Shown here piece after piece: positions 25,452-42,819 of a DNA stretch of 64,000 nucleotides. The notes below the pieces were generated by a model. It was not told the origin of the DNA. It was given only the letters and a program-made list of their open reading frames with translations, and did no database searches. Each line of letters opens with the position of its first letter. The stretch's first letter is position 1. Location of the stretch: the NCBI RefSeq assembly GCF_030362835.1, contig NZ_JAUCGQ010000001.1, positions 496,001-560,000 on the forward strand, read 5' to 3'. The position numbers and the translations under genes were made by a program. The DNA comes from Cellulomonas alba. Its GTDB lineage: Bacteria; Actinomycetota; Actinomycetes; Actinomycetales; Cellulomonadaceae.

Positions 25452-26915
25452 TCAGCCGTAGACAACGATCGAGTCGGCTGTCCGCGCGACGACATGACCT
25501 GCGGCGACGCCGACGCTCACGACGTGGCGCGGCAGCGCGACGGTCCATGCCGGCACGCCGTCCCCGAGGTGGAACGCCTCGAGCCGCAGCGCACCGGTGG
25601 GCGAGTCGCCCGGGCCCATGACGAGCGCGCCGTCGGACAGGGGCGGCCACGGCACGGGCTCCCCGAGCGCGACGGACCACAGCTCGCGGCCGTCGCGCGG
25701 GTCCAGCACGCCCCAGCGGTTGTCGCCTGCGACCACGAGCCGGTGCGACACGCGCGACACGAGGTCCATCACCTGCGGCTGCGACCAGAGCGCGTGGCCG
25801 TCGGCGGGGTCGAGGCCGCGCAGGGTCGTGCCCGAGTCGACCACGAGCAGGCGGCCCGTCGAGCCGTCGTCGGCCGCCGCGAGGGTCGGCGCGCCCGGCA
25901 GCCGGTACCGCAGGGTCCCGTCCAGCTTCGTGACGAGCCAGCCCGTGCCGATGTGCCACGTCGCGATGTCGCCGTCGACCGGCACCGCCCGGACGTTCTC
26001 GAGCGACGGCTCGTCGAGCAGCACCGCGCCGGTCGCCGCGTCGAGGACGAGCGTCCCCGCGCCGTGCACCACGAGCCATCGGCCGACGACCGTCACCGTG
26101 GTGGCCGGCGTCGCGCGCGCCAGGTCGAGCAGGTCGTCGCTGCGCACCGCCCAGCGCGTCGTGCCGCTCGCCGCCGCCCGGCGCTCCACGCCCAGGTAGC
26201 CGTCGTGGTCGTAGGTCACGAGCACGAGGTCGTCGTCGATGCGGGCGACGTCGAGCACCGCGTCGGTGGTCTGCCACCGCCCGAGCGCGCGGCCGTCGTC
26301 CGCGGCGAACGAGAGCGCGGTGGTGGGCGTGCCGGACCGACGGCCCGCGCCGGTCGCGTACAGGCTGCGCGCCGGGGTGACCACGCACGCGACGAGCGGT
26401 CCGACGTCCCCGCCGTCCGACGGGCAGAGCACCTCGGGACCCTCCGTGTCGCCGGTGGGTGCCTTGGCCAGCGGCCGCCTCCAGTGCTCGGCGCCCGAGG
26501 TCAGGTCGCGTGCAGCGAGGACGAGCTCGTCGCCGACCTGCGAGACGACAGCGAGCCGACCGTCGGCAGCCTCGACGCCGGACGTCGCCGACAACGCCGG
26601 CGCGGTCCACAGCGCGCGGGGCGGCCCGTCCAGCGGGCGGACCAGACCGGGGACGGCGGTGATGCGGCGCACGTACGCGCGGTCGTGCGCCGCGCCGATC
26701 TGCCACGCGGCGACCACGGCGCACACGGCCGCGACGACGACCAGCCACCAGCGGCGCGGCAGCCGACCGCGCCTCGCGCCGCCAGGCGTCGGGGGCACGG
26801 GACCGGGCGCGTCCGGCAGGCCGGCCTCGACGGCGAGCGGCTGTCCGGGCGCGACGGCATCGACCTCGTCGACCCGGACGAGCTGCATCCGTGCAGCCTG
26901 GCGTCGCTCCGCCAT
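25452..26915 (-). CDS. Membrane-anchored PQQ-like beta-propeller protein
   Basis: 487 residues. A cytoplasmic tail of about 55 residues is followed by one membrane segment (WWLVVVAAVCAVVAAWQIGA) and an extracytoplasmic beta-propeller of the PQQ-like/WD40-like type, with repeats such as LDPADGHALWSQPQVM, LDPRDGRELWSVALGE and LDAATGAVLLDEPSLE. There is no enzyme signature; a binding or scaffold role is likely. It is the last gene of the kinase/Fn3/MoxR run but also has its own TAGAGT-N6-ATG leaderless-type promoter (plus 26916-26927). Function unknown. Confidence 0.8.
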   Translation of the reverse strand: MAERRQAARMQLVRVDEVDAVAPGQPLAVEAGLPDAPGPVPPTPGGARRGRLPRRWWLVVVAAVCAVVAAWQIGAAHDRAYVRRITAVPGLVRPLDGPPRALWTAPALSATSGVEAADGRLAVVSQVGDELVLAARDLTSGAEHWRRPLAKAPTGDTEGPEVLCPSDGGDVGPLVACVVTPARSLYATGAGRRSGTPTTALSFAADDGRALGRWQTTDAVLDVARIDDDLVLVTYDHDGYLGVERRAAASGTTRWAVRSDDLLDLARATPATTVTVVGRWLVVHGAGTLVLDAATGAVLLDEPSLENVRAVPVDGDIATWHIGTGWLVTKLDGTLRYRLPGAPTLAAADDGSTGRLLVVDSGTTLRGLDPADGHALWSQPQVMDLVSRVSHRLVVAGDNRWGVLDPRDGRELWSVALGEPVPWPPLSDGALVMGPGDSPTGALRLEAFHLGDGVPAWTVALPRHVVSVGVAAGHVVARTADSIVVYG

Positions 26916-26936
26916 GGTCCGACTCTAGGCCAGGGA

Positions 26937-28412
26937 TCACGGCGCGGGCGGCGATCCCGGGCCCCGGACCAGGCGCAGCGCGCAGTCGCCGAACACCACG
27001 ACCGACCCGACGCGCAGCCGCACGCGCTGGTCGACGCCGCACCGCACCTGGCCGCCGTCGGGCAGCGTGACGACGGTCCCGTTCGTCGAGCCGCGGTCCG
27101 CGACCCAGACCCCGCCCGGCTCGACGCCGATCTGCAGGTGCGTCTTCGAGACCGAGCGGTTCGGGTCGTGCACGCGGATCGCGCGGACGTTCGTGCGGGC
27201 GACCGGGTTGCGGCCGACGAGGGCCGTGCGCTCGACGTAGAGCCGGCGGCCGTCGGAGAGCTCGATCTCGGCGGTCTCCGGGCCGGTGAACGGCAGCGTC
27301 TCCTCCGAGACGTCGTCGAGGCCGAGCGCGTCGGGCCGCGGCACCGCTCGGTGGGTGAGCTCGAGCTCCGGGTCGAGCGTCGACGGGGTGCCGGCCGACG
27401 CCGCGACAGGCGCCACCGCGGTGACCTGCTCGGCGACGGCTTGCACGGGTCCGGCGGCGCGCGCCGCGAGAGCAGCCGCTCCGGCCGGACCCGCAGCGTC
27501 GGGCGCCGCCGCGCCCGGCGTCGGGACGTCCGGCGCGAAGCCGGCCGGTGCGGAGCCGGCCGGCGCGGACGCGGCGCGCACGACCGGGATCGCACGGGTG
27601 TCCAGGTCGGGCCCGCTGCGCTGCGGGGCCAGCGGGGCGAGCCGCAGCGAGCCCGTCACGGCCGGCATCTCGTGCTGCGCCGACGCCGACCACGGGCGGA
27701 GCGCGGGCACGTCGGTCGGCGCGAGCACCGAGCTGGCCCAGGCCGGCACGGGCGCCGCGGGCGTCCCGGCAGTCACCTCGTCGGGCACGTCCGGCGCCAA
27801 GGAGGTCGAGCCACCGACCGCGACGCCGCCCACCGCGCGCGCGGCTCGCGTCGGAGCAGGGTCGTCCGCCGCACCGGGCCGCAGCGCGCGCGCGTCGAGC
27901 ACCTCGTCACGCGCCGCCCGGTCGTGCCAGCCGCGCCGCCTGCCGGTCGGGTCGACGAGCGGCGACGCCAGCACCAGGAAGGCGCCGACCAGGCACGCGA
28001 GCGCGCCGGCCGCGACGACCAGACCGCGTACCAGCACGCGGCCCATCCCGATCGGCCTGCGCGTCTCGGCGTCGACGGTCCGGATGTCCGTGAGCAGCCG
28101 ACCGAACGTCCAGCCCCGCCGACCGTGCAGCACCCACTGCACGACCGCGAGCACGACGCCGAGCCCGCCCGCGGCCGCGAGCACCCCGACGGGCAGCGCG
28201 TCCCCGTCCGCGGGTCGCACCACGAGCGCCACCCAGCCACTCGCGGCGAACGCGAGGACGAGGTCGACCACGAACGCACCGACGCGGCGCGGGTAGGACG
28301 CGAGGTCCGCCTCGGACGCCGGGCGTCCCGGCCGCGGCGCGTGGTCCACGGCCGGCGCGTAGAGGTCGTCGGCCGCGGTGCGCGGGTCTCGGGCGTGCTG
28401 CGGATCGGTCAT
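26937..28412 (-). CDS. RDD-family membrane protein with C-terminal FHA domain
   Basis: 491 residues. The N-terminal RDD-type membrane domain covers about residues 40-185 (YPRRVGAFVVDLVLAFAASG ... GWTFGRLLTDIRTVD). A long Ala/Pro/Gly-rich linker (about 190-385) leads to a C-terminal FHA domain (ALVGRNPVARTNVRAIRV ... SVSKTHLQI ... DRGSTNGTVV) that binds phosphothreonine. The overlap with the transglutaminase stop (ATGA at 28409-28412) places it in the kinase operon, where it is a likely membrane-bound reader of kinase targets. Confidence 0.87.
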   Translation of the reverse strand: MTDPQHARDPRTAADDLYAPAVDHAPRPGRPASEADLASYPRRVGAFVVDLVLAFAASGWVALVVRPADGDALPVGVLAAAGGLGVVLAVVQWVLHGRRGWTFGRLLTDIRTVDAETRRPIGMGRVLVRGLVVAAGALACLVGAFLVLASPLVDPTGRRRGWHDRAARDEVLDARALRPGAADDPAPTRAARAVGGVAVGGSTSLAPDVPDEVTAGTPAAPVPAWASSVLAPTDVPALRPWSASAQHEMPAVTGSLRLAPLAPQRSGPDLDTRAIPVVRAASAPAGSAPAGFAPDVPTPGAAAPDAAGPAGAAALAARAAGPVQAVAEQVTAVAPVAASAGTPSTLDPELELTHRAVPRPDALGLDDVSEETLPFTGPETAEIELSDGRRLYVERTALVGRNPVARTNVRAIRVHDPNRSVSKTHLQIGVEPGGVWVADRGSTNGTVVTLPDGGQVRCGVDQRVRLRVGSVVVFGDCALRLVRGPGSPPAP

Positions 28413-30838
28413 CGTGTTCCTCGGCGGACGTGCGGTTCAGCGGGTCGGCGGGCGCCACGGGGCGCGCGGACGGGTGCGGCGGTCGGCCGCGGCCGGGCGG
28501 CCCGACGGCGCAGCGACGCCGTCGACAGCCGGGCGCGCACGCGGCGGCGCCAGCGCACGGAGCGCGACATCGCGGACAGCGCCGCATCGACGTCGGCCCA
28601 GTACGCCCGGGTCTCGGCGTCGCTCGGCGTGCCCGGGGCGAAGACGGCGCGGTCGGCGGCGCGGGCGAGCGCGTCCACGCGGGTCGCGACGCCGGCGCGC
28701 GCGGGCGCGTCCGCGAACGCCGTGGCCAGTGCGCGGGCGGCCTCGACGCGCGTCGCCGTGGGGGGTACCGGGCGGCGCAGGTCGCGCGCGCGGTCCAGCA
28801 CCTCGGCGTACCCCCCGGCGACGCGCGCCACGGGGTCGCGGTCACGGCGCCGCCGGCGCCGGCGCCGGGCCTTGAGCAGGCCGATCACGACGAAGGGAAG
28901 CGCGACGACCGCCAGCGGGACCGCGACCGCCCCCGCGACCGTCGCGACGGTGCGCCAGCGGTCGTCGGCCGAGTCGGCCCGCGGCGGAGCGTCGGTCTGC
29001 GGCTGCTCGGTGTCGACGTCGGGCGGCTTGACCGCGGCCGGGGGCACGGGCGGCGGCTGGACGACCTGCGGGTCGGGCTCGGCGGGCTTGGGCTTCTGCT
29101 GCTGCTGCGGCGTCTGCTGCGCGGGGGGCGTCGCGTCGAACGGGACCCAGCCGTAGCCGACGAAGTCGACCTCGACCCAGGCCTGGACGTCCCGGCCCTT
29201 GACGGCGACGGCGCCGCTCGCGGCCTTGCCGTCCGACGTCGAGCCCGCCGCCTTGTCCGACGGCGTCCCCGAGCCGGGCACGAAGCCGAGCACCACGCGC
29301 GCCGGCAGGCCCATCGCGCGGGCCATCAGCGCCATCGCCGAGGCGTACTGCTCGCCGTCGCCGACCATCACGTCGGAGCCGAGCAGCGTCGTCATGCGGT
29401 CGGCGCCGTGGCCCGAGAGCGACGGGAAGTCGCCGCGCGTCGTGATGCCGTGGCTGAAGTACCCCTGCGTCGACAGCCAGGTGGCGAGCGTGCGTGCGAC
29501 CTGGACCGGGGTACCCGCGTCGCGCGCGACGTCGGCGGCCGTCACGGAGACGCTCTGCGGCGCGCCGTCCGGGTCGCGCAGCGTGACCTTGGCCAACCGC
29601 GCCTTGGCGAGCGTGGTGTCGTCCGGCACGGGCGGCACGACGACGTCGACCGAGTACGCGTCGCCGGGGTGGACGCCCGACGTGAGGACCGCCCCGCCGG
29701 TCGCGTCGTTGTAGCGCAGGTCTGCAGCGTCCGCGGCCGCGAGGTGGAACGAGCGCGCGTCGCCGACCGTCGGCAGCCAGACGCCGGTGAGCTTGTCGAT
29801 CGTGACCCGGACGCGGGCGGCCGTTCCCCGCGCCGTCGTGCCCGTCGTCGCGCCGACGCGGCGGAACTCGCCCGACGCGGCCGACCCGTCACCCGACACG
29901 TTCCAGACGACGCCGTCGTACCGGTCCATCGTCGCGAGCCGGATGCGCCCACCGGCCGGCAGGCCGGACACGGTGAACAGCGTCTCGTCGTCGTCCTTGA
30001 CGAACGCGCGGAACGCCGACAGCGGGCTCGGGTAGGCCGACGGGTCGAAGGGCGGCACGACCTCGTCGCGCACCACGTACCGGGGGGTCGAGCCGACCGC
30101 GACCGGGCCGCCCAGCGCGGCCGCGCCGAGCCCGACGAGCACGACCAGCCCGGTCGCGACCACGCGTCTCGCCCGCAGCGTCCCCGCGCGCCACGCCGCC
30201 CAGCCGAGCAGCAGGGCGGCCTCCACGACGCCCGTCAGCCGCGGCGCGGGGTGCGGCCACCGGGTCCCGAGCACGATCACGGCCACCGTCCCGGCTACCG
30301 GGACGAGCGCGGCGAGCGTCGCGACCTGCGGGTGGCGTACGCGCAGCGCGATCGACAGCGCGGCAGCCGCGCCGACGAGCGCGAGCAGGTAGGCGGGGAC
30401 GAGCACCGCGCCGGACGAGCCGAGCGGGGTCGTGAGCGTGACGACCTGCTTCCAGCCCGACGTCGCGCCCGTGACCAGCGCGCGCGCCGTCTGCGCCGTG
30501 GGCACGACCCCCGCGACGGTGGTCGCCGGGACGGCGAGCGCTCCCCCGCCGAGGACGCCCACCACGAGGAGGAGCGCGACGGTCGTCGCCGCCGACCAGC
30601 GCCGTGCCGCGCCCGCCGCGGCGACGCCGGCGCCGAGCAGGAGCCCGCCGACGAGCGCAGGCAGCGCCGTGGCTCCGCCGTAGACGCCGAGCAGAGGGGC
30701 GAGCGCGAACCCGAGCGCCGTGAGCAGGCACAGCGCGTCGACAGCACCCTGCCGGACGCCGCGGCGGGCGGGGCGTCGCGCGGCGCGGCGCGTCACGGGA
30801 GGCGCCGTCCGGGGCGTCGGCGCGATCGTGGTGCTCAT
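28409..30838 (-). CDS. TgpA-like membrane transglutaminase-fold protein lacking catalytic Cys and His
   Basis: 809 residues. The N-terminal membrane part (about residues 30-240, roughly six to seven segments) precedes an extracytoplasmic transglutaminase-like core (about 430-600), a Pro/Gln linker (PAQQTPQQQQKPKPAEPD), one more membrane segment and a basic C-terminal cytoplasmic domain. In the core, the position normally holding the catalytic Cys reads VGDGEQYASAMALMARAMGL (Cys replaced by Gly) and the His position reads RDVQAWVEV (His replaced by Gln); the Asp in WVPFDATPP remains. It is therefore probably a non-catalytic binding or scaffold protein. Start overlaps the DUF58 stop. Corresponds to tgm of the PFNA cluster. 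Confidence 0.87.
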   Translation of the reverse strand: MSTTIAPTPRTAPPVTRRAARRPARRGVRQGAVDALCLLTALGFALAPLLGVYGGATALPALVGGLLLGAGVAAAGAARRWSAATTVALLLVVGVLGGGALAVPATTVAGVVPTAQTARALVTGATSGWKQVVTLTTPLGSSGAVLVPAYLLALVGAAAALSIALRVRHPQVATLAALVPVAGTVAVIVLGTRWPHPAPRLTGVVEAALLLGWAAWRAGTLRARRVVATGLVVLVGLGAAALGGPVAVGSTPRYVVRDEVVPPFDPSAYPSPLSAFRAFVKDDDETLFTVSGLPAGGRIRLATMDRYDGVVWNVSGDGSAASGEFRRVGATTGTTARGTAARVRVTIDKLTGVWLPTVGDARSFHLAAADAADLRYNDATGGAVLTSGVHPGDAYSVDVVVPPVPDDTTLAKARLAKVTLRDPDGAPQSVSVTAADVARDAGTPVQVARTLATWLSTQGYFSHGITTRGDFPSLSGHGADRMTTLLGSDVMVGDGEQYASAMALMARAMGLPARVVLGFVPGSGTPSDKAAGSTSDGKAASGAVAVKGRDVQAWVEVDFVGYGWVPFDATPPAQQTPQQQQKPKPAEPDPQVVQPPPVPPAAVKPPDVDTEQPQTDAPPRADSADDRWRTVATVAGAVAVPLAVVALPFVVIGLLKARRRRRRRRDRDPVARVAGGYAEVLDRARDLRRPVPPTATRVEAARALATAFADAPARAGVATRVDALARAADRAVFAPGTPSDAETRAYWADVDAALSAMSRSVRWRRRVRARLSTASLRRRAARPRPTAAPVRAPRGARRPAEPHVRRGTR

Positions 30839-31977
30839 CCGGTCGCCCGCCGCAGCAGCCGGGGCAGGTCGGCGAGGGTGCCGAGCGTCGCGAGGCTGAG
30901 CGACCCCTGCGTGCGCACCTCGACGTCGGCGCCGCGCGCGCACCGCACGACGAGCACACGCGTGCCCGCCGGCACGTGGCGGGCGCCGAGCCGCAGGTCC
31001 GCGTCCGAGGGCCCCGAGCCGGTGACGAGCACCGCGACGGACGCGCCTGCGGCCTCGCGCGCGACGCGGCGGCCGAGCAGCACGACGCCCGCGTCGCCCG
31101 CCGCGAGCGCGAGGCCCGAGCAGTCGTCGAGCAGGCGGGGGGGCGTGTCGACCCGGAGCGCACCGGGACCCGCCAGGACGGCCAGCTCGCGCTCGTCGCG
31201 CAGGGTCTGGACGCCGATCGACGCGACCGCGCTGACCGCGAGCTCGAACTCGTCGTCGTCGGTGTAGTCGGCGGGGCTCGTCGCGAGCGCGAGCGCCGTC
31301 AGGGTGCGGCGCGTGTCCTCGAACTGCTTGACCATCAGGCGGTCGTGCCGCGCCGAGCTCCGCCAGTGGATGTTGCGCCGGTCGTCGCCCGCGACGTAGT
31401 CGCGCAGCGCGTGGAACGACATGTCGGACTCCGACAGGTCGCGCGTGGCCTGCCCCTCGAGGTCGCGCAGCAGGCCCGCGTTCGCGCCCGCGAGCCCGAC
31501 CAGCGCCGGGTGCACGAACAGCTCGACGGGCTGCGTCCAGCGCACCGACCGGCGCACGAGCCCGAGCGGGTCGCCGCGGACCGAGCGCACGGGCCCGACC
31601 ACGATCACCGCGCGGCGCGAGGTGGGGATCGAGAAGAGCTCGTCGTGGCTCGCGCCCGGCGCCAGGCTCGGCACCGCGAGCTCCGCCACGCTCGCGCCCA
31701 CCGGCAGCTCGACGCGCGACGGCAGCGCGCGCCGGCGCGCCGCGTTCCGGATCTCGAGGCCACCCGTCGCGCGGTCCCCGACGCGCACGCGGTGGTCCGC
31801 GAGGTCGAGGTCGACGGCGTACCGCGCCCGGCCGATCGTCATGAGCAGCGCGACGACACACACGGCCGCGCACGCGGCGCCGACCGCCGCGAGCTCGAGC
31901 CAGCCGAGCCGCCGGCCCACGACGAGGCCGAGGACCGCGACGACCGCGGTCCCCCAGCCGAGCGGGGTGATGCGCAT
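30835..31977 (-). CDS. DUF58 domain protein (MoxR-associated)
   Basis: 380 residues. Two N-terminal membrane segments (about residues 5-48) precede a beta-rich region and the DUF58 core with the hallmark FHALRDYVAGDDRRNIHWRS (about residues 192-211), then a vWA-like remainder. DUF58 proteins are the usual partners of MoxR AAA ATPases. The start overlaps the MoxR stop by one base (TGATG) and the stop overlaps the next start (ATGA). Confidence 0.92.
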   Translation of the reverse strand: MRITPLGWGTAVVAVLGLVVGRRLGWLELAAVGAACAAVCVVALLMTIGRARYAVDLDLADHRVRVGDRATGGLEIRNAARRRALPSRVELPVGASVAELAVPSLAPGASHDELFSIPTSRRAVIVVGPVRSVRGDPLGLVRRSVRWTQPVELFVHPALVGLAGANAGLLRDLEGQATRDLSESDMSFHALRDYVAGDDRRNIHWRSSARHDRLMVKQFEDTRRTLTALALATSPADYTDDDEFELAVSAVASIGVQTLRDERELAVLAGPGALRVDTPPRLLDDCSGLALAAGDAGVVLLGRRVAREAAGASVAVLVTGSGPSDADLRLGARHVPAGTRVLVVRCARGADVEVRTQGSLSLATLGTLADLPRLLRRATG

Positions 31978-32933: not shown

Positions 32934-32982
32934 GGGGGTCCTTTCGGGGGTGGCCGGTCGAGTCGCGGGTGGTGGGGGCTGC

Positions 32983-35900
32983 TCAGCCGCCACCCGGGCC
33001 CGCCGCGGGGTCCGAGATCGTCACGGTCAGGGCGGTCGACGTGCCGCGCGCGCTCGCGCCCACGTCGTTGGACGCGCGGATGGCGACCGTGATCGTGTGG
33101 TCGCCGGGGGTCGGGTTCGGCCCGAGCACCTTGTCGATCGCGACGGGTGCGGTCGGCGCGTCCTGCCACGCCGTCCACGCGCCGCCGTCGACCTGCCACT
33201 GCACGTCGTGGCCGGTGATCGGCAGGCCGCCGGTGTCGGTGGGGTCGGTCCACGCGACCGTCAGCTGCGTCGGGTCCGTCGCCTGGTCGGGGGTCAGCGT
33301 GACGTCGGTCACGGCGCCGGGCGCCGAGCCCCAGGTCCCGATCGTGCGCGTCGCCTTGCCGGCGTCGCTCGTGAGGGTGGTGCCCGACACGACGGTGGTC
33401 GCCGTGACGCTCACCGTGACGGCGGTGCCGCCGACGGGCCAGTTCCAGCCGCTCACGTCGATGCCCGGCACCGACGTGTCGGTGGTCGTTCCCGACCTGG
33501 AACCGCCCTTGCCCGTGACGGTCCAGGTGTACGACACGGGCGCCGAGGAGCCCGGCGCCGGCGCGGACCAGGCGATGTCGAGCGCGCGCGGCCGCCCGGA
33601 CGGGGCGGTGTCCGACACCACCGGGTCGGACACGTTCGGCGTGCCCGGCGGTGTCGTCGCCGTCGCGGACGCCGGGTCGCTCCAGCCGCTGACGTAGCCG
33701 GCGTCGCCCCCGCCACCCGCGTTCTGCGCCTGCACGACGAAGACGTAGCTCTGACCGCCGGTCAGGTGGTCGGCGGTGTAGCTCGTCCCGCGCACGGTGA
33801 CCGGGTCGCCGCCGTTGATCCGCACGTGGTACTCGGCGATCGGCGAGCCGTTGCCGTCCGACGGTGACCAGCTGACGTCGATCGCGCCCGCGCCGACGCG
33901 CGCGACGGCCGACACGTTCTCCGGCGTCGTCGGGGCACCGAACGTCGTGGCGTCCACGGTCGCCGCGGGCCCCCAGTCCGCGCGGTTCCGGGCGCGCACC
34001 GCGAAGTGGTATCCCACGCCGTTGCGCGCGTCGAGCAGCGCGTACGACGTCGTCGCGGTACCGTCGAACGTCTTGACGAGGCTCGAGCCGTTGCCGGTGA
34101 TCGTCAGCTCGTAGCCGGAGATCGCGGCGCCGTTGTCCGCGGGCTGCGTCCACGACACGGAGATCTGGCCGCCGAGCGGCGTGCTGGCGCGCTGCGCGAC
34201 GAGGTCGCCCGGTGCGTCCGGCGGCGCGGCCGGCGTCTCCTGCGCGGCCGGCGACCACTCGCTCGGGTCGGGCGCGCGGTTGTGGGCCCGCACCTGGACC
34301 GCGTAGCGCGTGCCGTTCGCGAGGCCCTCGAACGTGTAGGACGTCGACGTCGTGTCGACGGTCGACGGCCCGGACGGCGGGGCGGGCGTGATCATCAGCG
34401 TGTAGCCCGTCACCGGCGACCCGCTGGAGTGCGGCGCGACCCACGACGCCTCGATGCGCCGGTCGCCGAACCGGAGCGTCGGTGCCGCCGGCGCGTCGGG
34501 CACGGTGTCGGGCCGCGCGCTGCCCGACGGCAGGCTCGGGTCCGACGTGCCGACCGCGTTCCGCGCGGCGACGGTGAACGTGTAGTCCACGTCGTTCGTC
34601 AGGCCGGTGATCGTGCACGTCGTGGCGGGGCACTGCTGGACGACGTGGCCCGGGCTCGCCACCACCTCGTAGCCCGTGATCGCCGCGCCCCGGTTGTCGG
34701 GCGCGACCCAGGACAGCACGACCGACCGGTCGCCCACCGAGACCACCTGCGGGGCGTCGGGCTGCGCGGGCTTGCCACGCACGACGACCGTGATCCGGCC
34801 CTCGACGGCGCGGTCGGGGTCGCCCGTGACGTCGCGGACCGTGAACCGCGTGACCATCTGGCCGATGAAGCCGACGGCGGGCCGGACCGAGACGGTGCTG
34901 CCCGTGACGCCGGCCGTGCCGGCGTCGGGTGTCTCGACGGCGGCGCCCACGACGAGGAGCGGCTGCCCCGGGAACGGGTTGTACGCGCCCTCGAGCACCG
35001 CGACCGTGCGCGCGACCCCCTCGACGCCGTCGGCGATGGTCGTGTCGACCACGCGCGCGGTGGGCCGCGTGCTGGCCACCACGCGCAGCGGCACGCTGAC
35101 GTCGAGGTGGCCGGAGGTGCCGTAGCCGATCCGGAGGTCGACCGAGTCGGTGCGGCCCTTGGGCGTGCTGACGGCGGCGCCGACCGACAGGACGCTCCCC
35201 TTGAGCGACGCGGTGAAGCCTGCCGGCACGGCGGACGACACGGTGTACGTGTACGCCGCGGCGGCACCCGTCGCGCCCTCGGGCCCGTGCGTGAACGCGC
35301 GCAGGTCGACCGCGAGGGGCTCCTCCCCCGGCGCCACGTCGATCACCGAGGCGTCGAACGCGGGCGGGTGGTCGTCGACCGCGAAGACGGTGATGGGCAG
35401 CGTGATGACCGCGGTGTGCGCCGTGGAGTCGCCCGCCGACCGCGCGTCGGTGACGGGCACCGTGATCGACGCGGGCCCGGCGTACCCGGCGGCCGACGTG
35501 AACTGCAGCTGCGTCGAGCTCTTGACCAGCGACGAGCCGTCGGACCGCGTCGCCGTGACGCCGACCGGGTCGGCGACCGACGGGCTGCGGCCGGGCGCGA
35601 CCTGGATCTGCTCGTCCAGCGAGATGACGAGCGGCTGGCCCGACGCGACGCGCAGCTCGGGCGCCTTCGGCCGCGGCGTGGGCGGGAAGAACCCGAGCGC
35701 CGGGACGGTGATGAACGCGTACGACGACGCCTTGCCGCCCGGCGAGGTCGTGTTCGTGAGCAGGAACGGCACCGTCTGCGCGTGGTCCGCGAGGGTCACG
35801 ACGACCTTGCCGGTCGCGTCGACGCGCGCGACCGCGGCGAACGCCGCGGGAACGGACGCCTGCAGGTCGGACAGGGGGCCGCTCGGGTTCTGCGCGACCG

Positions 35901-38900
35901 CGAGGACGTCGACGACGACCTCGGTCCGGTCGATCGTCTCGGTCGCGGGCACGACGACGTCGCGCGCGATCGGCGGCAGGACGGGCGCGTCGGACACGAC
36001 CTTCACGGTGAGCACCGCCGAGTCGTGGCCACCGCGCTCGTCGCGCGCGGTGTAGGCGATCTGGATCGTGCCGTCCTTGCTGGGCGCGTGGACGACGATC
36101 CGGCGGCCCTCGACGTGCGCGTCGGTGCCCTGCGGCATCTCGAGCGACGCGTCGAGCGAGAGGTCCGCGCCGCTCGAGTCGACGTCGTTGGCGAGCACCC
36201 GGACCTCGACCGTCTGGTCGGGCTTGACGGTCACCTCGTCGTCGCGCGCCACGACCGAGGAGGCCGACGTCGGTCGCGGGGCGATGCCGATGCGCACCGT
36301 CGCGACCGCGCGCTGGCCGGTCCAGTCCTCGACCGCGTACGTGAACGCGTCGGTGCCGACCGCGTCGGCGTACGCTTCGAACTCGAGCCAGTCGGCGCCC
36401 TGGTCGACGACGCGGCCCTGCTTCGGCGCCGACGCCTGGCCGAGCAGCGTGACGCCGTCGCCGTCGGAGTCGATGCCGACGAGCGGCACCGAGACGCGCA
36501 CCGTGTCGCCCGCGAACACGCGCGCCGTGAGGTCCTTCGGCCGTGGCGGCGCCTTGGTGGACGCGTCCGACGCGTGCACGTGCACCGTCACCTGGGCCGC
36601 GGTCCGGTTGCCCGTCGAGTCGATGACCTCGAACGTCGCGCGCACCGTCCCGGGCGTCCCGGACGCCTGGTAGCGCAGCACGTCGCCCGACACGAACATC
36701 AGGCCGACCGGCGGCGGCTCGGGCAGCTGCGTCTCGAGCGCGATGTCGTCGCCGTCGGGGTCGTACGCGGTGTCGAGCACCGGGATCGTGACGACACCGC
36801 CCGTGCGCACCTCCGCGTCGACGTTCGGCACGACGGGCGCCTGCGAGGACGAGCGCGGCGGGACCGGGTGCACGACGATCTCGCCGACCGCGCTCGCCTG
36901 GCCGTTCGAGATCGTGTAGCTCAGCGAGACCGGCCCGTCGAGCGTCCGCTCGCCGCGGATCTGCACGAGGTCGTGGTCGATCACCGCGACCTTGAGGCCG
37001 GACCCGGACGGCACCGCGACGTCCTGCACGACGAGCACGTTGCCCGCGGGGTCCGAGTCGTTGGCGAGCGGGTCGATCGTCACCTGGCCGCCCGACGGCA
37101 GGAACGCGGCGTCGCGCACCGCGACCGGGGGCTCGGCCTTGTCGGGCCACGGCAGCACGTCGATCCGCGCGAGGCCGGTGGCCTGCTGCGGCGCCGCGAC
37201 GACGAGGAACGAGACGTAGTACGTGCCGGCACGCGCGGACGCGAAGCTGAAGGTGCCGCCCTGCAGGTCGGGCGTGATCGTCGCGCCCGCCGCGTCGTCG
37301 ACGCTCGCGAGCCGCGGCGGCTCGGCCGAGCTGCTCCGCACGGCGTCGAGCGGCCGCACCTGCACCGGCTGGTTGACGTACGTGACGGCGTGCACGGGGT
37401 CGATGTGCGGCGCGAGCGAGCCCGCCGGCCGCACCTCGACGTCGAGCGTGCCGGTCGTCTTCTCGGTGCCGTCGGAGACCTCGAGCGTCACCGTGGTCCG
37501 GCCCAGCCGCGCGGACGCGCCCGCGACGAACGTCAACGACCCGTCCTGCTTGAACCGCACGGTGCCGGCCGCGCCACCCGCCGCGAGGCGCGCGCCGGTG
37601 AGCAGCAGGTCGTCGCCGTCGGGGTCGGTGAAGTCGGCGAGCACGTTCTGCTCGGCCTGGCCGCCCTGCTCGACGCGCAGCAGCCCGGTCCGCACCTGCT
37701 TGGGCGGGCGGTTGCCCGCCGGCGTGGCGACCAGGTGCACGTGGGCGGTCGACGGCGTCGAGCCGCGGCCGTCGGTGATCGTGTAGGTGAAGTCGGCGGA
37801 GCCGGTGGCGCCGGCCGCGACCTCGACCTGGAGCGCGCGGCCGCCGTAGATCTTCTCGATCGTGCCGAAGTCGGGGTCGAGCTGGTCGAACTGGGAGACC
37901 ACGAGGATGCCGCAGTCGGACGTCGAGTCGTCGTCGAGGACCGGCAGGATCGTGGTGCGGCCGGGACGCACGCCGAACTCGTCGTCGGCGGCCGTGGGCG
38001 GCGCCTGCTCGTGCGTGCACTCGGTGACGAGGTCCTGCGTGGTGTCGGTCGTGTCCTTCTGCTGGTCGTCCTCGTCCGGCGTGTCCTCGGGCACGATGTC
38101 GTCCCAGTTGGGCACGCGCGCCTTCGCGTCTTGCGTCGGCAGCCACACGCGGCCCTGCACCGTGTCGTTCAACGCCACGACGTTGCGGTTGACGCGGAAC
38201 CGCAGGTGCTCGGAGCTCGTCATGCCCTGCAGGTCGACGACCTTGGTGCGGCCGTCGCACAGGCTCAGGTAGGAACCGGTCGCGGCGGCCCACGCGGCGT
38301 GCGTGCACGACCCGACCTGCACCGGCTGGGCCGGCGTGCCGCCGGCACCGCGCGTCCGGTGGCTGACCACGGCGCCGCCGCCGAGCGGCACCTCGAGCAG
38401 CGCCGTCCGGCTCGCGACGAGCACGCGCGACGACGCGGGACCTGGCTGCTGGAGCTGCAGGTCGTCGCCCTCGAGCTCGACCGCGCCGTGCGGCGTGCGC
38501 AGCGTGCTGCCGCTGAGCGTCACCGGCACGTCGCCGACCGCGGTGAGCTGGTCGACCGGCCCGGCGCCCAGCGACCCGGCCGCGACCGGCGTGCCGCCCG
38601 CCACCATGCGCGTCACCCGGCCGTCGGCGGGCGCGACGCCCAGCACGGTGCCGTCGCGCGCCACGACGGCCTTGCCGCCCTCGCCGAGCGCGACGTCGCC
38701 CGCGTCGGTCCCGACCTGCAGGCCCGCGAGCCCCGCGAGCCTCCGGACGTACAGGTCTCCGGCGGGGTCGACGATCGCGACCGTGCCGGCGGCCATCGAC
38801 GGCGTCACGTTCGAGACCGCGACCTGCGTGGTCGTGGTGACCGTCGCCGGGTCGACCACCGACAGCGTGGTGGGCTCGACGAGGAGCACGTCACCGCCGT

Positions 38901-39147
38901 CCTGCAGCACGTCGAACTGGTTCCCGGTCGTGACGATGCCGCCGTTGAGCTCCTCGACCTGCGCGTTGAAGCGGCCCAGCTTGAGCTGCGCGGTCGCGGT
39001 GAGCCAGACGCCGCCGTCATTGAGGTCGACGCGCGCGAGCGGGAAGCCCCGGCCGACGATCGCGAGCGCGGCGACGACCACCGGGATGGTGACGACCGCC
39101 GCCGTGCTCGTGACGCGCCGGCGCACGGACTCCCCGCGCCACCTCAT
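32983..39147 (-). CDS. Giant membrane-anchored Ig-like/fibronectin type III repeat protein
   Basis: 2054 residues, the largest gene in the window. A basic N-terminus and one membrane segment (about residues 12-34) are followed by an extracellular region of about 330 residues resembling a propeller (LYVRRLAGLAGLQVGTDAGD...). Then come roughly eleven Ig-like/cadherin-like modules (about residues 380-1450), many with a PVLDxxxDPDGDD-type motif, and about six Fn3 domains to the C-terminus (PDAPQVVSVGDRSVVLSWVA, ITGYEVVA, YTFTVAARN...). There is no LPXTG or C-terminal anchor. Its start overlaps the kinase stop (ATGA). A cell-surface adhesin or sensor reporting to the kinase is inferred; it corresponds to fn3 of the PFNA cluster. 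Confidence 0.9.
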   Translation of the reverse strand: MRWRGESVRRRVTSTAAVVTIPVVVAALAIVGRGFPLARVDLNDGGVWLTATAQLKLGRFNAQVEELNGGIVTTGNQFDVLQDGGDVLLVEPTTLSVVDPATVTTTTQVAVSNVTPSMAAGTVAIVDPAGDLYVRRLAGLAGLQVGTDAGDVALGEGGKAVVARDGTVLGVAPADGRVTRMVAGGTPVAAGSLGAGPVDQLTAVGDVPVTLSGSTLRTPHGAVELEGDDLQLQQPGPASSRVLVASRTALLEVPLGGGAVVSHRTRGAGGTPAQPVQVGSCTHAAWAAATGSYLSLCDGRTKVVDLQGMTSSEHLRFRVNRNVVALNDTVQGRVWLPTQDAKARVPNWDDIVPEDTPDEDDQQKDTTDTTQDLVTECTHEQAPPTAADDEFGVRPGRTTILPVLDDDSTSDCGILVVSQFDQLDPDFGTIEKIYGGRALQVEVAAGATGSADFTYTITDGRGSTPSTAHVHLVATPAGNRPPKQVRTGLLRVEQGGQAEQNVLADFTDPDGDDLLLTGARLAAGGAAGTVRFKQDGSLTFVAGASARLGRTTVTLEVSDGTEKTTGTLDVEVRPAGSLAPHIDPVHAVTYVNQPVQVRPLDAVRSSSAEPPRLASVDDAAGATITPDLQGGTFSFASARAGTYYVSFLVVAAPQQATGLARIDVLPWPDKAEPPVAVRDAAFLPSGGQVTIDPLANDSDPAGNVLVVQDVAVPSGSGLKVAVIDHDLVQIRGERTLDGPVSLSYTISNGQASAVGEIVVHPVPPRSSSQAPVVPNVDAEVRTGGVVTIPVLDTAYDPDGDDIALETQLPEPPPVGLMFVSGDVLRYQASGTPGTVRATFEVIDSTGNRTAAQVTVHVHASDASTKAPPRPKDLTARVFAGDTVRVSVPLVGIDSDGDGVTLLGQASAPKQGRVVDQGADWLEFEAYADAVGTDAFTYAVEDWTGQRAVATVRIGIAPRPTSASSVVARDDEVTVKPDQTVEVRVLANDVDSSGADLSLDASLEMPQGTDAHVEGRRIVVHAPSKDGTIQIAYTARDERGGHDSAVLTVKVVSDAPVLPPIARDVVVPATETIDRTEVVVDVLAVAQNPSGPLSDLQASVPAAFAAVARVDATGKVVVTLADHAQTVPFLLTNTTSPGGKASSYAFITVPALGFFPPTPRPKAPELRVASGQPLVISLDEQIQVAPGRSPSVADPVGVTATRSDGSSLVKSSTQLQFTSAAGYAGPASITVPVTDARSAGDSTAHTAVITLPITVFAVDDHPPAFDASVIDVAPGEEPLAVDLRAFTHGPEGATGAAAAYTYTVSSAVPAGFTASLKGSVLSVGAAVSTPKGRTDSVDLRIGYGTSGHLDVSVPLRVVASTRPTARVVDTTIADGVEGVARTVAVLEGAYNPFPGQPLLVVGAAVETPDAGTAGVTGSTVSVRPAVGFIGQMVTRFTVRDVTGDPDRAVEGRITVVVRGKPAQPDAPQVVSVGDRSVVLSWVAPDNRGAAITGYEVVASPGHVVQQCPATTCTITGLTNDVDYTFTVAARNAVGTSDPSLPSGSARPDTVPDAPAAPTLRFGDRRIEASWVAPHSSGSPVTGYTLMITPAPPSGPSTVDTTSTSYTFEGLANGTRYAVQVRAHNRAPDPSEWSPAAQETPAAPPDAPGDLVAQRASTPLGGQISVSWTQPADNGAAISGYELTITGNGSSLVKTFDGTATTSYALLDARNGVGYHFAVRARNRADWGPAATVDATTFGAPTTPENVSAVARVGAGAIDVSWSPSDGNGSPIAEYHVRINGGDPVTVRGTSYTADHLTGGQSYVFVVQAQNAGGGGDAGYVSGWSDPASATATTPPGTPNVSDPVVSDTAPSGRPRALDIAWSAPAPGSSAPVSYTWTVTGKGGSRSGTTTDTSVPGIDVSGWNWPVGGTAVTVSVTATTVVSGTTLTSDAGKATRTIGTWGSAPGAVTDVTLTPDQATDPTQLTVAWTDPTDTGGLPITGHDVQWQVDGGAWTAWQDAPTAPVAIDKVLGPNPTPGDHTITVAIRASNDVGASARGTSTALTVTISDPAAGPGGG

Positions 39148-40664
39148 GCCGTGCAGCCCTCCGTCGGGCGCACCGACTCGCGCCGGTCCGCCCGCACGAT
39201 CGAGACCTCGATGCACACCTGGCCCGACGCCTGCGCTGCCGGCACGGTGACGGTCGTCGTCCCGACGAGCGCGAGCGTCGGCTCGCCGGTCGCCTGGCGG
39301 ACACCCCACACGTACTGGTCGCCCTGCTGCGGGTCCGGGTTGGTCCAGCGGAACACGACCGACCCGTCGGCCTGGCGGGCGCCGGCGAGCTCCGTCGGGC
39401 TCGGGACCGCGCCCCCGACCGTGGGCGGCGGCGCGGGCGCGAGCGCCGTCGTCGTCGGCCCGGCGTCCGCCGAGCCCGAGCCCTGCGCCGCCACGGCGAT
39501 CGCGCCGCCCGCGGCGGCGAGCACGACGACGCCGGCCACCACCCCGGCCACGACGCGACCGCGGCCCGACGGGGCCGCCTCGACCTCGTCCTCGACCTCG
39601 GCCGGCACCTCGAAGCGCGGACCGGGACCGGCCGGCGGCGCCTCGGGCGTCACCTGCACCGCGCCGCGCACGCGCGTCCGGTCGTCGTCGACGGGTGCCC
39701 CGGTGGGCGCGACCGGGTCGACCGCGACGATGCCACGCAGGCGCGTCGCATCGGGGTGGTCGGCACGCTCGGCGGCGGCGGGCGGCGCGGGCTCGTCCGT
39801 GAGGTCGAGCGGCGTCACGGGCACCCGGAGCTCGGCCTCGACCTGCTGGAACGCGCGGCCCAGCGCCGCGGCCGACGGGAAGCGCCGCGCGGGGTGCTTC
39901 GCCATCGCGCGCTCGAGCACCTGCTGGAGGCTCGCGGGCACGTCGGCTCGGCCGGTCGGCGGCAGCGCGGCGCGCTCGATGCGCGCGACGAGCTGCTGCG
40001 CGGTGTTCTGCCCGCCGGGAAGCTCGAACGGCGTGCGACCCGCGAGCAGCGAGTAGACCGTGGCGGCGAGCGAGTACACGTCGGAGCGCGCGTCGCCGGT
40101 GGGGTGCTCTCCCAGCAGCTCGGGCGGCGACCACGGGATCGACATGCCGACGGTCGCGGCGCCGTCCGGGCCCGTCGTCGCGGCGATGCCGAAGTCGGTG
40201 AGCGCCGGCCAGCCGAAGTCGGTGGTCAGGACGTTCGCCGGCTTGATGTCGCGGTGCAGGATGCCCGCGCGGTGGGCGGTCTCGACGGCCGACGCGAGCC
40301 GGATGCCGATGCGCAGCGCCTCGGCGACGGCGATCCGCTCGGTGCGGTACCGCTCCGCGAGGCCGGGCCGCGAGCAGTACTCCATGACGAGGTACGGCCG
40401 CCCGTCGGCCGCGATGTCCGCCTGGTACACGGTGACGATCGACGGGTGGTGCGAGAGCTGCGCCATGAGGTTCGCCTCGGTGCGGAACCGGCGCCGCACG
40501 TCGTCGTCCATGCTCCCCGCGAGCAGCACCTTGACCGCGACCTCGCGACGCGGGAGGTCCTGGCGGTACAGGAAGACGTCGGCGAAGCCGCCGAGGCCGA
40601 GCAGGCGGACGTGCTCGTGGCCCGGCAGCGCCGGTGGTGCGGAGGGCTCGCGGCGTGCGGTCAC
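39144..40664 (-). CDS. Transmembrane serine/threonine protein kinase with Fn3-like ectodomain
   Basis: 506 residues. The kinase domain covers about residues 18-275: glycine loop LGLGGFADVFLYRQ, Lys in VAVKVL, catalytic loop HRDIKPANVL, DFG in LTDFGIA, and SPPE in place of APE. A juxtamembrane linker is followed by one membrane segment (VVAGVVAGVVVLAAAGGAIAV) and an ectodomain of about 100 residues that reads as a single Fn3-like fold (PSPTELAGARQADGSVVFRW ... VCIEVSIVRADRRESV). There are no PASTA repeats, so it is not the PknB/StkP cell-wall sensor type. GTG 40664 overlaps the FHA gene stop. Likely partners are the adjacent PP2C phosphatase and the two FHA proteins. Confidence 0.92.
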   Translation of the reverse strand: MTARREPSAPPALPGHEHVRLLGLGGFADVFLYRQDLPRREVAVKVLLAGSMDDDVRRRFRTEANLMAQLSHHPSIVTVYQADIAADGRPYLVMEYCSRPGLAERYRTERIAVAEALRIGIRLASAVETAHRAGILHRDIKPANVLTTDFGWPALTDFGIAATTGPDGAATVGMSIPWSPPELLGEHPTGDARSDVYSLAATVYSLLAGRTPFELPGGQNTAQQLVARIERAALPPTGRADVPASLQQVLERAMAKHPARRFPSAAALGRAFQQVEAELRVPVTPLDLTDEPAPPAAAERADHPDATRLRGIVAVDPVAPTGAPVDDDRTRVRGAVQVTPEAPPAGPGPRFEVPAEVEDEVEAAPSGRGRVVAGVVAGVVVLAAAGGAIAVAAQGSGSADAGPTTTALAPAPPPTVGGAVPSPTELAGARQADGSVVFRWTNPDPQQGDQYVWGVRQATGEPTLALVGTTTVTVPAAQASGQVCIEVSIVRADRRESVRPTEGCTA

Positions 40665-41905
40665 GTGCCTCGCTCCACGGTGAACGTCACGCCGTCGCCG
40701 AGGTCCACCACCTCGCCGGCCTCGACGACGCTCGGCTCGCCCGGGTGGAGACGACGCGCACCCTGCCCCGGCCGCGCCACGTGCACGCCGTTCGTGGAGT
40801 CCAGGTCGGTGACGAGCACGACGTCGCCGTCCGACCGCACCTCGGCGTGCGTGCGCGAGATGTCCTGCTGCGGGCTCGGCACGGTGACGAGCCGCGGCAG
40901 CTCGCTGTTCGTCACGCGCGCGACCTGCGGCGCGCGCCCGACGAGCACGGCCCGGTCGAGCTCGACGACGACGCCCGTCGACAGGACGATGCGCGCCGGC
41001 GCCGCCGCCGGCGTCGGCACGGTGAATGCCGAGCGCGCGTCGTCGGCCGCCCACGCGGGCAGCTGGTCGCGGATCGAGGCGAGGTCGGCCGACATGATCG
41101 TCATGCCGTCGTGGTCGTCGGGCGAGGCGCCCTCCACCGTGACCGGCGCCTGCAGCAGCGCCTCGGCGGCGGCCACCACGTCCGCCGGCTCGGGGTCGGG
41201 CGTCGCGTGCGTCGGGAACCAGGGCACCACCGGCGGGGCGTCGTACGCGTCGGCGCGCAGGTCGGGCGCGTCCGTCACCGCCGCGGCACCGACCGGCTCG
41301 GACGGATCGGCACCGCCGCCCGGCCGCGCCGCGTCGTCGGGCTCCTCGTCCTCGAGCGGCTCGAGCGCGACGAGCGCGTGGTCCATGCGCTCCGGCTCGA
41401 CGTAGCCGCCCTCGGCGGGCTCGGCCTCGTCCGGCTCGGCGGCCGGGGCGTCGAGGCCGGCCGCGACGTCAGCGGCGACGGGCGCCTCGTCGGCGACGAA
41501 CCCCACGCGCACGGCCGAGGCACGCACGACGCCCTCCGCGATCGGCAGCTCGGCGCCGGGCACGGCACCGGGCGTGCGCACGACTACTCCCGGCGCGTCG
41601 TCGACGACGCGCTCGCTCCACGTGCTCACCTCGCCGGGGATCAGCACCTCGGCTCCGACCTCGACCTCGACGTCACCGCGCAGCGCGACGTGCAGCCGTC
41701 GCCGGTCGACGGCGACGATCGCGAACGGCGGCAGTCCCTCGAAGCCCTCGCGCGCGAGCAGCGCGAGCACGCCGAGCACACCCGCGTCGGTGGCCGCCCA
41801 CACCGCGCGCACCGTCGCCTGCGGCACCTGCGGGCCGAGCAGCGCGACGAAGCCCGGACGGACCACGGCGGTCCAGTCCCCGGCGGAGTACTCGGGCACG
41901 GTCAT
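40661..41905 (-). CDS. FHA-domain protein
   Basis: 414 residues. The N-terminal 130 residues form a folded domain I do not recognise (MTVPEYSAGDWTAVVRPGFV...). An acidic, Ala/Pro-rich linker follows (about 150-310), then a C-terminal FHA domain (about 315-412) with the phosphothreonine-binding pattern VGRAPQV ... PSPQQDISRTHAEV ... DLDSTNGVHV. It is soluble, with no membrane segment. Start and stop overlap the phosphatase and kinase genes, so it is a likely direct substrate or adaptor of that kinase. Confidence 0.9.
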   Translation of the reverse strand: MTVPEYSAGDWTAVVRPGFVALLGPQVPQATVRAVWAATDAGVLGVLALLAREGFEGLPPFAIVAVDRRRLHVALRGDVEVEVGAEVLIPGEVSTWSERVVDDAPGVVVRTPGAVPGAELPIAEGVVRASAVRVGFVADEAPVAADVAAGLDAPAAEPDEAEPAEGGYVEPERMDHALVALEPLEDEEPDDAARPGGGADPSEPVGAAAVTDAPDLRADAYDAPPVVPWFPTHATPDPEPADVVAAAEALLQAPVTVEGASPDDHDGMTIMSADLASIRDQLPAWAADDARSAFTVPTPAAAPARIVLSTGVVVELDRAVLVGRAPQVARVTNSELPRLVTVPSPQQDISRTHAEVRSDGDVVLVTDLDSTNGVHVARPGQGARRLHPGEPSVVEAGEVVDLGDGVTFTVERGT

Positions 41906-42819
41906 GGCGCGTTCCCCTCGATCGTGTCGGCGGGTGGTTCGGTGCGGCGCGCGCGAGGCACGGTCGCGCCGTTGAGCATCTCGTCCCAGAGGTGGGGCCC
42001 GAGGTCGGCACCGAGACGCGGCACGGTGATGTGCGCGTCGTCGTTCGCCCCGATGGTCGTGGCGACGTCGACCACGACGACGCTGACGTTGTCGCGCCCG
42101 CCCCGGTCGAGCGCGAGCCCCACGAGCCGCGTCGCGGCCTCCTGCGGGTCCGCCACGTCCGCCAGCACCGCACCCAGCTCGGCGTCACCGACGTCCCGCG
42201 TCAGGCCGTCCGTGCAGATCAGCAGCCGGTCCGTGCGGCCCGCGGGCAGCAGCCAGTAGTCGGGCTCGTGCGCCTCGCCGGTGCCGAGCGCGCGTGTCAG
42301 CACGTGCCGCTCGGGGTGTGACGCCACCTCCGCGGGGTCGATCGCGCCCTGGTCGAGCAGCTCCTGGACGACGGAGTGGTCGACGCTGACGCGCTCGAGA
42401 CCCTCCTCGTTCCAGCGGTACACGCGCGAGTCGCCGACGTTGAACACGAGCCAGTAGGACCCGCCGTCGTGCTCGGTCACCGCGACGCCCGCGACGGTCG
42501 TGCCGCCCTGCCGGCCGCCGGTGAACTCGCCGCGGATCCGGGTCGCGGTCCGCGCGAAGCACGCGTGGACGTCGTCGGCGCTCGCCGCGGCCTGACCGGC
42601 CAGCTGCGCGAACTCCTCGACGGCGATCCGGCTCGCCAGGTCGCCGGCGTCGTGGCCGCCCATGCCGTCGGCGACCAGGAAGACCGGCGGGTACGCGAGG
42701 AGCGCGTCCTCGTTCACCTCGCGGACCAGGCCACGGTCGGTCGCCGAGCCCCACGACGTGCGCACACGGCCCCCTCGCCTCGACTCGTTGCCGGAGGACA
42801 GGCGTCCCCCGGTGGACAT
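41902..42819 (-). CDS. PP2C-family serine/threonine phosphatase (PrpC/PstP-like)
   Basis: 305-residue metal-dependent phosphatase. Metal-binding and core motifs are visible: TDRGLVREVNEDALL, LVADGMGGHDAGDLAS, VFNVGDSRVYRW, LICTDGLTRDV and GGRDNVSVVVVD. It has no membrane segment, unlike PstP. First gene of the kinase cluster, it is probably the antagonist of the downstream kinase (prpC of the PFNA cluster). Upstream, 42820-43007 holds the promoter region shared with the divergent lipoprotein; I see no clear operator there. Confidence 0.93.
   Translation of the reverse strand: MSTGGRLSSGNESRRGGRVRTSWGSATDRGLVREVNEDALLAYPPVFLVADGMGGHDAGDLASRIAVEEFAQLAGQAAASADDVHACFARTATRIRGEFTGGRQGGTTVAGVAVTEHDGGSYWLVFNVGDSRVYRWNEEGLERVSVDHSVVQELLDQGAIDPAEVASHPERHVLTRALGTGEAHEPDYWLLPAGRTDRLLICTDGLTRDVGDAELGAVLADVADPQEAATRLVGLALDRGGRDNVSVVVVDVATTIGANDDAHITVPRLGADLGPHLWDEMLNGATVPRARRTEPPADTIEGNAP

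Follow-up and report, generated by a model that had tools for sequence, protein, structure and literature searches.

The PFNA operon of Bifidobacterium comprises the genes pkb2, fn3, aaa-atp, duf58 and tgm, joined in some species by prpC and fha, and work on it has treated it as an immune-sensing operon of bifidobacteria that includes a transglutaminase. In the available parts of the published accounts, the cluster is described as species-specific to bifidobacteria, and FN3 is stated to occur only in Bifidobacterium (PMC10688814). Co-transcription of the operon and phosphorylation of MoxR by the kinase are, in the same limited sense, published for Bifidobacterium longum only, where MoxR is a substrate of the kinase Pkb2 (PMC8430577, available part). 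Three other described systems are relevant here: (i) TgpA of Pseudomonas aeruginosa (PF11992/PF01841), whose catalytic triad and activity are described in the accessible portion of PMC3507681; (ii) the MoxR-vWA-β-propeller ternary systems (bpMoxR, PF20030; PMC7159879, available part), in which MoxR has a propeller-bearing partner; and (iii) the mycobacterial moxR1-DUF58 operon, in which MoxR adjoins DUF58 and whose authors note its resemblance to PFNA, the accessible text mentioning no giant protein, kinase or tgm product (PMC12067865).

Here we describe a block of nine genes in a stretch of 64,000 nucleotides from Cellulomonas alba (contig NZ_JAUCGQ010000001.1, positions 496,001 to 560,000; “the window”). 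All nine lie on the minus strand between 25452 and 42819, as established by Pfam and start-site analysis, in the order PP2C phosphatase, FHA protein, Ser/Thr kinase, giant Fn3/Ig protein, MoxR, DUF58 protein, transglutaminase-like protein (TGm), RDD-FHA protein and propeller protein. Six of the eight junctions overlap by 1–4 bases each, and gaps of 49 and 21 bases separate the giant gene from moxR and the RDD-FHA gene from the propeller gene, respectively. A preliminary description of this DNA had already reported nine mostly overlapping minus-strand genes, their domains and a 2054-residue surface protein, all of which Pfam, the start sites and the junctions bear out. Its MoxR-DUF58-transglutaminase module stands as far as the genes are concerned; the “transglutaminase”, however, lacks the catalytic Cys and His. 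The lost triad, a propeller in the giant protein and a set of Thr motifs were absent from that description.

The block contains pkb2-fn3-aaa-atp-duf58-tgm in this order and in a single direction, together with accessory PP2C and FHA genes of the PFNA kind. The window thus holds a PFNA member in a variant arrangement. It has in common with the Bifidobacterium operon the core gene order, a propeller-Ig-Fn3 protein (by profile), MoxR, DUF58 and a Cys-less TGm. Unlike that operon, it begins with PP2C and FHA, continues after TGm with RDD-FHA and the propeller gene, and carries the Thr motifs. As in the bpMoxR systems, MoxR here accompanies a protein that bears a propeller, in this case a predicted one, and the window MoxR scores 33.6 bits against PF20030 (cut-off 27), although AAA_3 fits far better (207 bits). 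Unlike bpMoxR systems, the block has DUF58 instead of a plain vWA protein, and the giant's propeller is predicted to lie outside the membrane; no vWA or effector domain was found among the Pfam results for the block.

In the reading we favor, to which we give about an even chance, the block is a PFNA-type cluster encoding a surface sensor whose kinase likely controls MoxR and DUF58, a machine that would have the pseudo-transglutaminase as its target. We base it on the gene set and its tight junctions, the published role of MoxR as a Pkb2 substrate in B. longum, the linkage of the genes in relatives, the loss of Cys compared with intact TgpA, the predicted propeller and kinase Fn3 domain, Thr motifs that exceed shuffled controls in two sets of loci, the variable tips and the tandem giants.

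Loss of the catalytic cysteine in TGm

TGm of the window and TgpA of P. aeruginosa both combine a transmembrane bundle with an extracytoplasmic transglutaminase fold; in TGm, six transmembrane-like segments are followed by an ectodomain, one further transmembrane segment and a tail. The solved TgpA domain 6g49 aligns over the active-site region and anchors our alignment of it. The positions that hold Cys, His and Asp in active TgpA are occupied by Gly495, Gln552 and Asp568 in TGm. An earlier placement of Glu at the former Cys position was rejected, as the 6g49 alignment gives Gly495. Thus, unlike TgpA, the window TGm has lost Cys and His, and it is partnered with a kinase and the giant. In the published Bifidobacterium operon tgm is called an enzyme, whereas the TGm of the window has no catalytic Cys.

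The loss of Cys extends to every set of TGm relatives examined. Among the window TGm and its best relatives (120 of 827), the Cys column holds G in 104, D in 9, S in 4 and A in 3, with His retained in 7 and Asp in 118. When a Bifidobacterium TGm was the query, the best 120 of 496 relatives had Ser in all 120, with neither His nor Asp in any; those with names were all Bifidobacterium. A scan of named genomes, combining an alignment of TGm proteins with the motif [MR][VI]G[DN]xEQ[YF]A[VSA], returned at least 592 stretches, from which the best 80 of 569 relatives were used. These 80 named loci have Cys in none, His in 32 and Asp in 53, the motif being open at the Cys position and fixed at its neighbors. 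We also searched 149 genomes of the order with a DNA pattern for [VI]G[DN]xEQ[YF]A that allows any codon at x (one match in the reversed control). It gave 69 matches in 60 genomes, none with a Cys codon at x, where again the neighboring letters are fixed; 67 of the 69 are true TGm genes.

Two sets are free of this neighbor-letter bias. A search for the Pfam domain TgpA_N in the same 149 genomes found a match in at least 135, and 20 regions were chosen among the weaker matches, some weaker ones being omitted. None of the 16 loci in this set that bear the cluster core has Cys, nor do any of four clusters found through the giant. For comparison, all 30 top-scoring TgpA_N loci of the order keep both Cys and His, in a comparison whose pattern fixed the neighbors and not the Cys. 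In every PFNA-type TGm examined the catalytic Cys is missing, and this loss is among what is new here: in titles and abstract openings of the open literature we found no report of it, nor of the cluster outside bifidobacteria. Because the catalytic Cys is lost, TGm would bind a partner and not cross-link it.

Related arrangements were also seen. At L046 the Cys is intact and the giant is absent. In the sister loci L047:7419-12463, L048:4711-12412 and L050:7352-14706, MoxR, DUF58 and a Cys-less TGm lie near a WD40, PKD or Fn3 protein without a propeller-Ig giant, which suggests a broader theme of a surface protein with a MoxR-DUF58-pseudo-transglutaminase set. In the proteins P0268, P0274 and P0276 (1214–1221 residues), Pfam places DUF58 and Transglut_core in one polypeptide, which we count in support of the favored reading.

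Distribution and arrangement of the cluster

The preliminary description had matched the block to PFNA and proposed that scattering of the genes in relatives would speak against a single system. The genes are not scattered: Bifidobacterium and many other actinobacteria have homologous clusters whose core genes follow the same order. Of the 80 named loci, which include close kin, 54 have full 10-kb flanks; a kinase on the same strand is present in all 54, and the giant-MoxR-DUF58-TGm core is complete in 52. The two genes that had been taken as extensions in this genome fared differently. RDD-FHA is no addition of this genome, as an RDD domain is present in 45 of the 54, whereas the terminal propeller gene was found in 16, all of them Cellulomonas. 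This ninth gene was sought by phmmer with one query sequence, so that divergent copies may be missed; L055 has a weak tblastn match (29%). Of the 20 TgpA_N-chosen regions, 16 hold the core, 15 of these with the propeller profile (L064 is cut by a contig end), and a kinase, FHA or PP2C gene is in view in 15 of the 16. Some genomes, for example those of L055 and L071, fall in both locus sets.

Sixteen of the 69 pattern matches were 15 loci already in the set and the window itself, and the remaining 53 regions were examined as well. Two matches arose by chance (L162 and L166), and all 60 genomes retain at least one real match. A giant is in view at 63 of the 67 TGm loci; three of the four misses lie at contig ends, and the fourth is L186. 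Pattern-positive genomes belong to 12 of the 20 families sampled in the order and to one family (f45) of another order. The same pattern matched 67 of 394 genomes across the class, of which 20 regions were examined: f45 gave 12 TGm genes in 12 regions, 10 of them with a giant, the single region from the window's own order was real, and all seven regions from other families were chance matches. Lack of a match is no proof of absence, because the pattern misses variants. A genome may carry up to three separate clusters, as at L189-L191 (genome G080) and L192-L194 (G111).

The cluster is not restricted to Bifidobacterium, as named loci lie in Cellulomonas, Microbacterium, Actinotalea, Agreia, Jonesia and others. 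Two loci connect these to the Bifidobacteriaceae (f4). At L057, whose TGm is 100% identical to that of Bifidobacterium gallicum, and at L061, profiles seeded with the window and built with these loci match the kinase, the giant (propeller, Ig and Fn3), MoxR, DUF58 and TGm, and plain tblastn with the window proteins finds these same proteins as well. One contig filed as Stenotrophomonas maltophilia P13 (L125) carries an actinobacterial-type TGm-RDD-FHA-PP2C stretch and is probably contamination.

Two arrangements exist, in which the kinase half stands before the MoxR half, as in the window, or after it, as in Microbacterium, Agreia and others; among the full-flank named loci the kinase is upstream in 39 and downstream in 15. 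On a tree of MoxR and TGm, Cellulomonas are the closest named relatives of the host genome (G000, 3.8 Mb). A first tree took in 97 of 141 loci, with the named loci sampled at one in three. To follow the arrangement, rows with an unseen kinase and the long-branched L060 were left out, and on the resulting tree (73 rows, each of known state) one or two changes explain the position of the kinase half. Since the arrangement changes and adjacency persists, the two halves have remained adjacent through rearrangement. An initial count of five or six changes, which would have meant many independent swaps, arose from scoring unseen kinases as a state and was discarded. A cluster at L176 has no MoxR between giant and DUF58.

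The giant protein, the kinase and candidate Thr motifs

AlphaFold2 modeling of giant residues 1-385, with 28 relatives, predicts a propeller of 29 strands with a mean pLDDT of 85, mostly 91–98 over residues 51–350. Its closest Foldseek match is BamB (8e-8). The domain recurs in different families, and two of its Cys are invariant in 16 aligned rows. Over 28 relatives, identity of the giant is 0.38–0.79 up to residue 1800 and falls to 0.19–0.26 beyond it. Five selected genomes carry two or three tandem giants that have their stalks in common and differ at their tips; in the four where the region is in view, the tandem giants directly precede one MoxR-DUF58-TGm set, and in G031 the sequence stops at the contig end. 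Nine full pairwise comparisons of tandem giants gave 59–85% identity over propeller and stalk and 22–44% over residues 1841–2054, and one pair is 100% identical over 1441–1640 and 44% over 1841–2054.

One way to read these tandem copies is as a repertoire whose different tips discriminate neighbors, kin, phages or substrates. The multiple giants ahead of a single MoxR-DUF58-TGm set, and the change from identity to divergence in that pair, fit such a role. We nevertheless think it rather unlikely, as the window genome and the mapped named loci mostly carry one full-length giant, and relaxed constraint at the tip would give the same picture. An improbable but serious alternative is housekeeping of the envelope, in which MoxR-DUF58 would assemble the giant and the dead transglutaminase into a structural scaffold of the cell wall, and the kinase would merely adjust the amount of this scaffold to growth phase. 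The conserved stalk and propeller, the lack of a known ligand and the report that canonical TgpA is essential in Pseudomonas (PMC3507681, available part) agree with it, whereas hypervariable tips, tandem copies and the kinase ectodomain fit recognition better than a plain scaffold.

For Bifidobacterium, host cytokines have been proposed as ligands of the Fn3 protein, with the kinase reporting their binding. A B. longum Fn3 fragment binds TNF-α, and TNF-induced expression has been described (accessible parts of PMC8430577, PMC10688814 and PMC12607495). We consider such a host-immune sensor a very unlikely explanation of the block, because the same cluster with its propeller-Ig-Fn3 protein is present in Cellulomonas, Microbacterium, Agreia, Jonesia and others; contrary to PMC10688814, as far as its available text goes, the FN3 protein is not restricted to Bifidobacterium. 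The signature WSx[PWESDAY]S closely resembles the “cytokine receptor” motif described in print and was seen in 70 of 86 giants, two of them Bifidobacterium loci, and the motif WSxxS has no match in the window's giant. Being common in giants outside Bifidobacterium, it was rejected as evidence for an immune-specific role.

The kinase ectodomain is predicted to adopt an Fn3 fold; a Trp, a Val and two Cys residues in it do not vary over 38 aligned rows. The window kinase does not fit the PASTA type (PknB/Stk1): PASTA repeats gave no Pfam match in it, and it scores 176 of the 450 bits required by NF033483. Short Thr motifs recur in the variable tails of four cluster proteins. They were counted in a first set (L049-L065 and the 80 named loci, window included), which is rich in Cellulomonas and Microbacterium, and in a wider set (L157-L221 and L227) with counts taken outside Bifidobacteriaceae. 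TRxR is present in 72 of 80 kinase linkers of the first set (shuffle mean 5, maximum 13) and in 18 of 35 of the wider set (mean 2.2, maximum 7); the looser TxxR reaches 26 of 35 in the latter, against a shuffle maximum of 25. For PP2C tails, TxPR occurs in 30 of 31 (mean 0.6, maximum 4) and 9 of 23 (mean 0.6, maximum 3), respectively. DHDGxT[IV] is found in 27 of 32 FHA linkers of the first set (none in shuffles), with Thr in all 30 aligned residues, and in 5 of 7 of the wider set, a count without shuffle control. Likewise, the RDD-FHA motif [DE]xT[RKH] occurs in 58 of 71 (mean 6.3, maximum 14) and, without shuffle control, in 12 of 16.

Kinases outside the cluster have TRxR in 3 of 28, with linkers averaging 75 residues compared with 109 (domain ends were estimated, and another two loci lacked a usable frame). 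The loop signature GxS[IL][PL]Wx[PA]PE is present in 79 of 81 first-set kinases and in none of these 28. A post hoc count within the wider set finds TRxR at 11 of the 13 loci where RDD-FHA is in view, compared with 7 of the other 22. Short kinase linkers (about 65–72 residues) with neither TRxR nor an RDD-FHA in view were seen at L177 and L179-L182 (f9) and at L190, L192, L195 and L198 (f19). In the Bifidobacteriaceae PP2C tails seen (L057 and three others), TxPR is absent. The motifs were rejected as a family-wide feature, as TRxR is present in about half of the wider-set kinases and in none of the Bifidobacteriaceae kinases. It is possible that they form a docking code for FHA domains; such a code, if real, is confined to part of the family, including the window.

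From these parts we propose the following mechanism. The genes would be co-transcribed. The giant, held outside the cell on its membrane anchor, would be the sensing part, with its predicted β-propeller, Ig stalk and variable Fn3 tip meeting a ligand, and the membrane kinase with its predicted Fn3 ectodomain would pass the signal inward. By analogy with known FHA-domain biology, the kinase may phosphorylate the motif Thr on itself (TRxR), on the phosphatase (TxPR) and on the two FHA proteins ([DE]xT[RKH] and DHDGxT), and the FHA domains may dock on these phospho-Thr sites and assemble a complex, with PP2C reversing the phosphorylation. Control of the MoxR-DUF58 pair would fall to this complex, and the pair would in turn remodel the TgpA-like membrane protein; the partner of the Cys-less TGm is perhaps the giant or a cell-wall peptide.

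Several observations weigh against this favored reading. The frequencies of TRxR and TxPR drop from the first set to the wider one, and the kinase loop signature declines to 12 of 35 and 3 of 6 in the latter. The shuffles overstate the significance of the motifs, because the rows are related. None of eight Bifidobacteriaceae kinases examined (L057, L061 and six of the wider set) has TRxR, and this is the group in which the published operon was studied. MoxR is not indispensable in its place, since Cellulomonas fimi SB (L094), C. aerilata (L119) and genome G125 (L197) lack it between giant and DUF58. At L186 the kinase, PP2C, FHA, MoxR, DUF58 and TGm are present, and no recognizable giant lies in the 7 kb upstream of MoxR. 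Finally, the TGm loss is often of Cys alone, as the His and Asp counts of the 80 named loci show.

Coordinates, flanking genes and significance

The features of the block are collected in Table 1. For MoxR the ATG start was adopted; a GTG at 32993 is also possible. The gene leuA lies 159 bases downstream of the block. Upstream, a small gene on the opposite, plus strand with a lipoprotein-like start (about 43005-43441) stands beside the first gene of the cluster; it is followed by a membrane-anchored α/β hydrolase gene (43449-45041) that has era on its other side and a partial match in L055. A promoter and terminator scan of 42600-43600 found none, and a search of viral contigs gave no match.

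Table 1. Features of the gene block, in window coordinates (aa, amino acids; TM, transmembrane segment; AF2, AlphaFold2)
Feature	Coordinates	Strand	Evidence or remark
PP2C phosphatase, 305 aa, first gene	41902..42819	-	PF13672 3e-10; NF033484 Stp1 1e-55, below its cut-off
PP2C C-tail motif ATVPR (T286)	41953..41967	-	TxPR
FHA protein, 414 aa, FHA domain 337-403	40661..41905	-	PF00498 6e-8; 4-base overlaps with PP2C and kinase
FHA linker motif DHDGMTI (T269), before FHA domain	41096..41116	-	DHDGxT[IV]
Ser/Thr kinase, 506 aa, GTG start; kinase domain, TRxR linker, TM 371-389, ectodomain	39144..40664	-	PF00069 9e-39
Kinase juxtamembrane motif ATRLRG (T307)	39732..39749	-	TRxR linker motif
Second kinase motif RTRVRG (T330)	39663..39680	-	T in 58/68 aligned residues; +3 Arg 82%
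Kinase ectodomain, predicted Fn3 fold	39147..39407	-	AF2 pLDDT 90.5; Foldseek best fibcon (1.5e-4) and FN3con
Giant surface protein, 2054 aa, N-terminal TM anchor 14-32	32983..39147	-	PF00041, PF17963, PF17892
Giant: predicted membrane-proximal β-propeller, residues about 42-350	38098..39024	-	AF2, Foldseek
Giant: Ig/cadherin-like stalk, residues 376-1440	34828..38022	-	Big_9, Cadherin_5; identity 0.55-0.79
Giant: Fn3 array, hypervariable distal tip	32986..34827	-	PF00041; identity 0.19-0.26 past residue 1800
MoxR AAA+ ATPase, 318 aa	31977..32933	-	AAA_3 1e-61, AAA_lid_2 6e-23 (scored on 338-aa reading)
DUF58 protein, 380 aa, two N-terminal TM-like segments	30835..31977	-	PF01882 1e-10
TGm, TgpA-like pseudo-transglutaminase, 809 aa	28409..30838	-	PF01841 8e-17; solved relative 6g49
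TGm dead catalytic site GDGEQYA, Cys position = Gly495	29342..29362	-	Alignment, 0/120 with Cys including window
TGm catalytic His position = Gln552	29183..29185	-	His in 7/120 aligned
RDD-FHA protein, 491 aa	26937..28412	-	PF06271 1e-15, PF00498 2e-8
RDD-FHA linker motif ELTHR (T353)	27348..27362	-	[DE]xT[RKH]
TM-anchored PQQ-type propeller protein, 487 aa, ninth gene	25452..26915	-	PF13360 (PQQ_2) 8e-13

The distribution of the cluster, the dead enzyme, the predicted folds, the lineage-limited candidate motif code and the variable tips alter the reading of a known operon. With a TGm that is Cys-less in every copy examined, an fn3 protein that is not unique to bifidobacteria and a cluster common outside Bifidobacterium, the question becomes one of a general envelope signal more than of host cytokines. 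The favored reading predicts phosphorylation of the Thr motifs, FHA domains that bind them, and one ectodomain that binds its partner without cross-linking it. More speculatively, and in our view with a rather small chance of being right, the cluster may be a diversifying receptor system: the Fn3-bearing kinase would read single or tandem giants, alike in their stalks and changeable in their Fn3 tips, and write one common phospho-Thr code on its own chain, on PP2C and on both FHA proteins, through which MoxR-DUF58 would reset the dead transglutaminase as a peptide-binding half of the receptor. If so, recognition of self and neighbors, or of wall damage, would span the order, and the cytokine binding described in bifidobacteria would be one late use of it.

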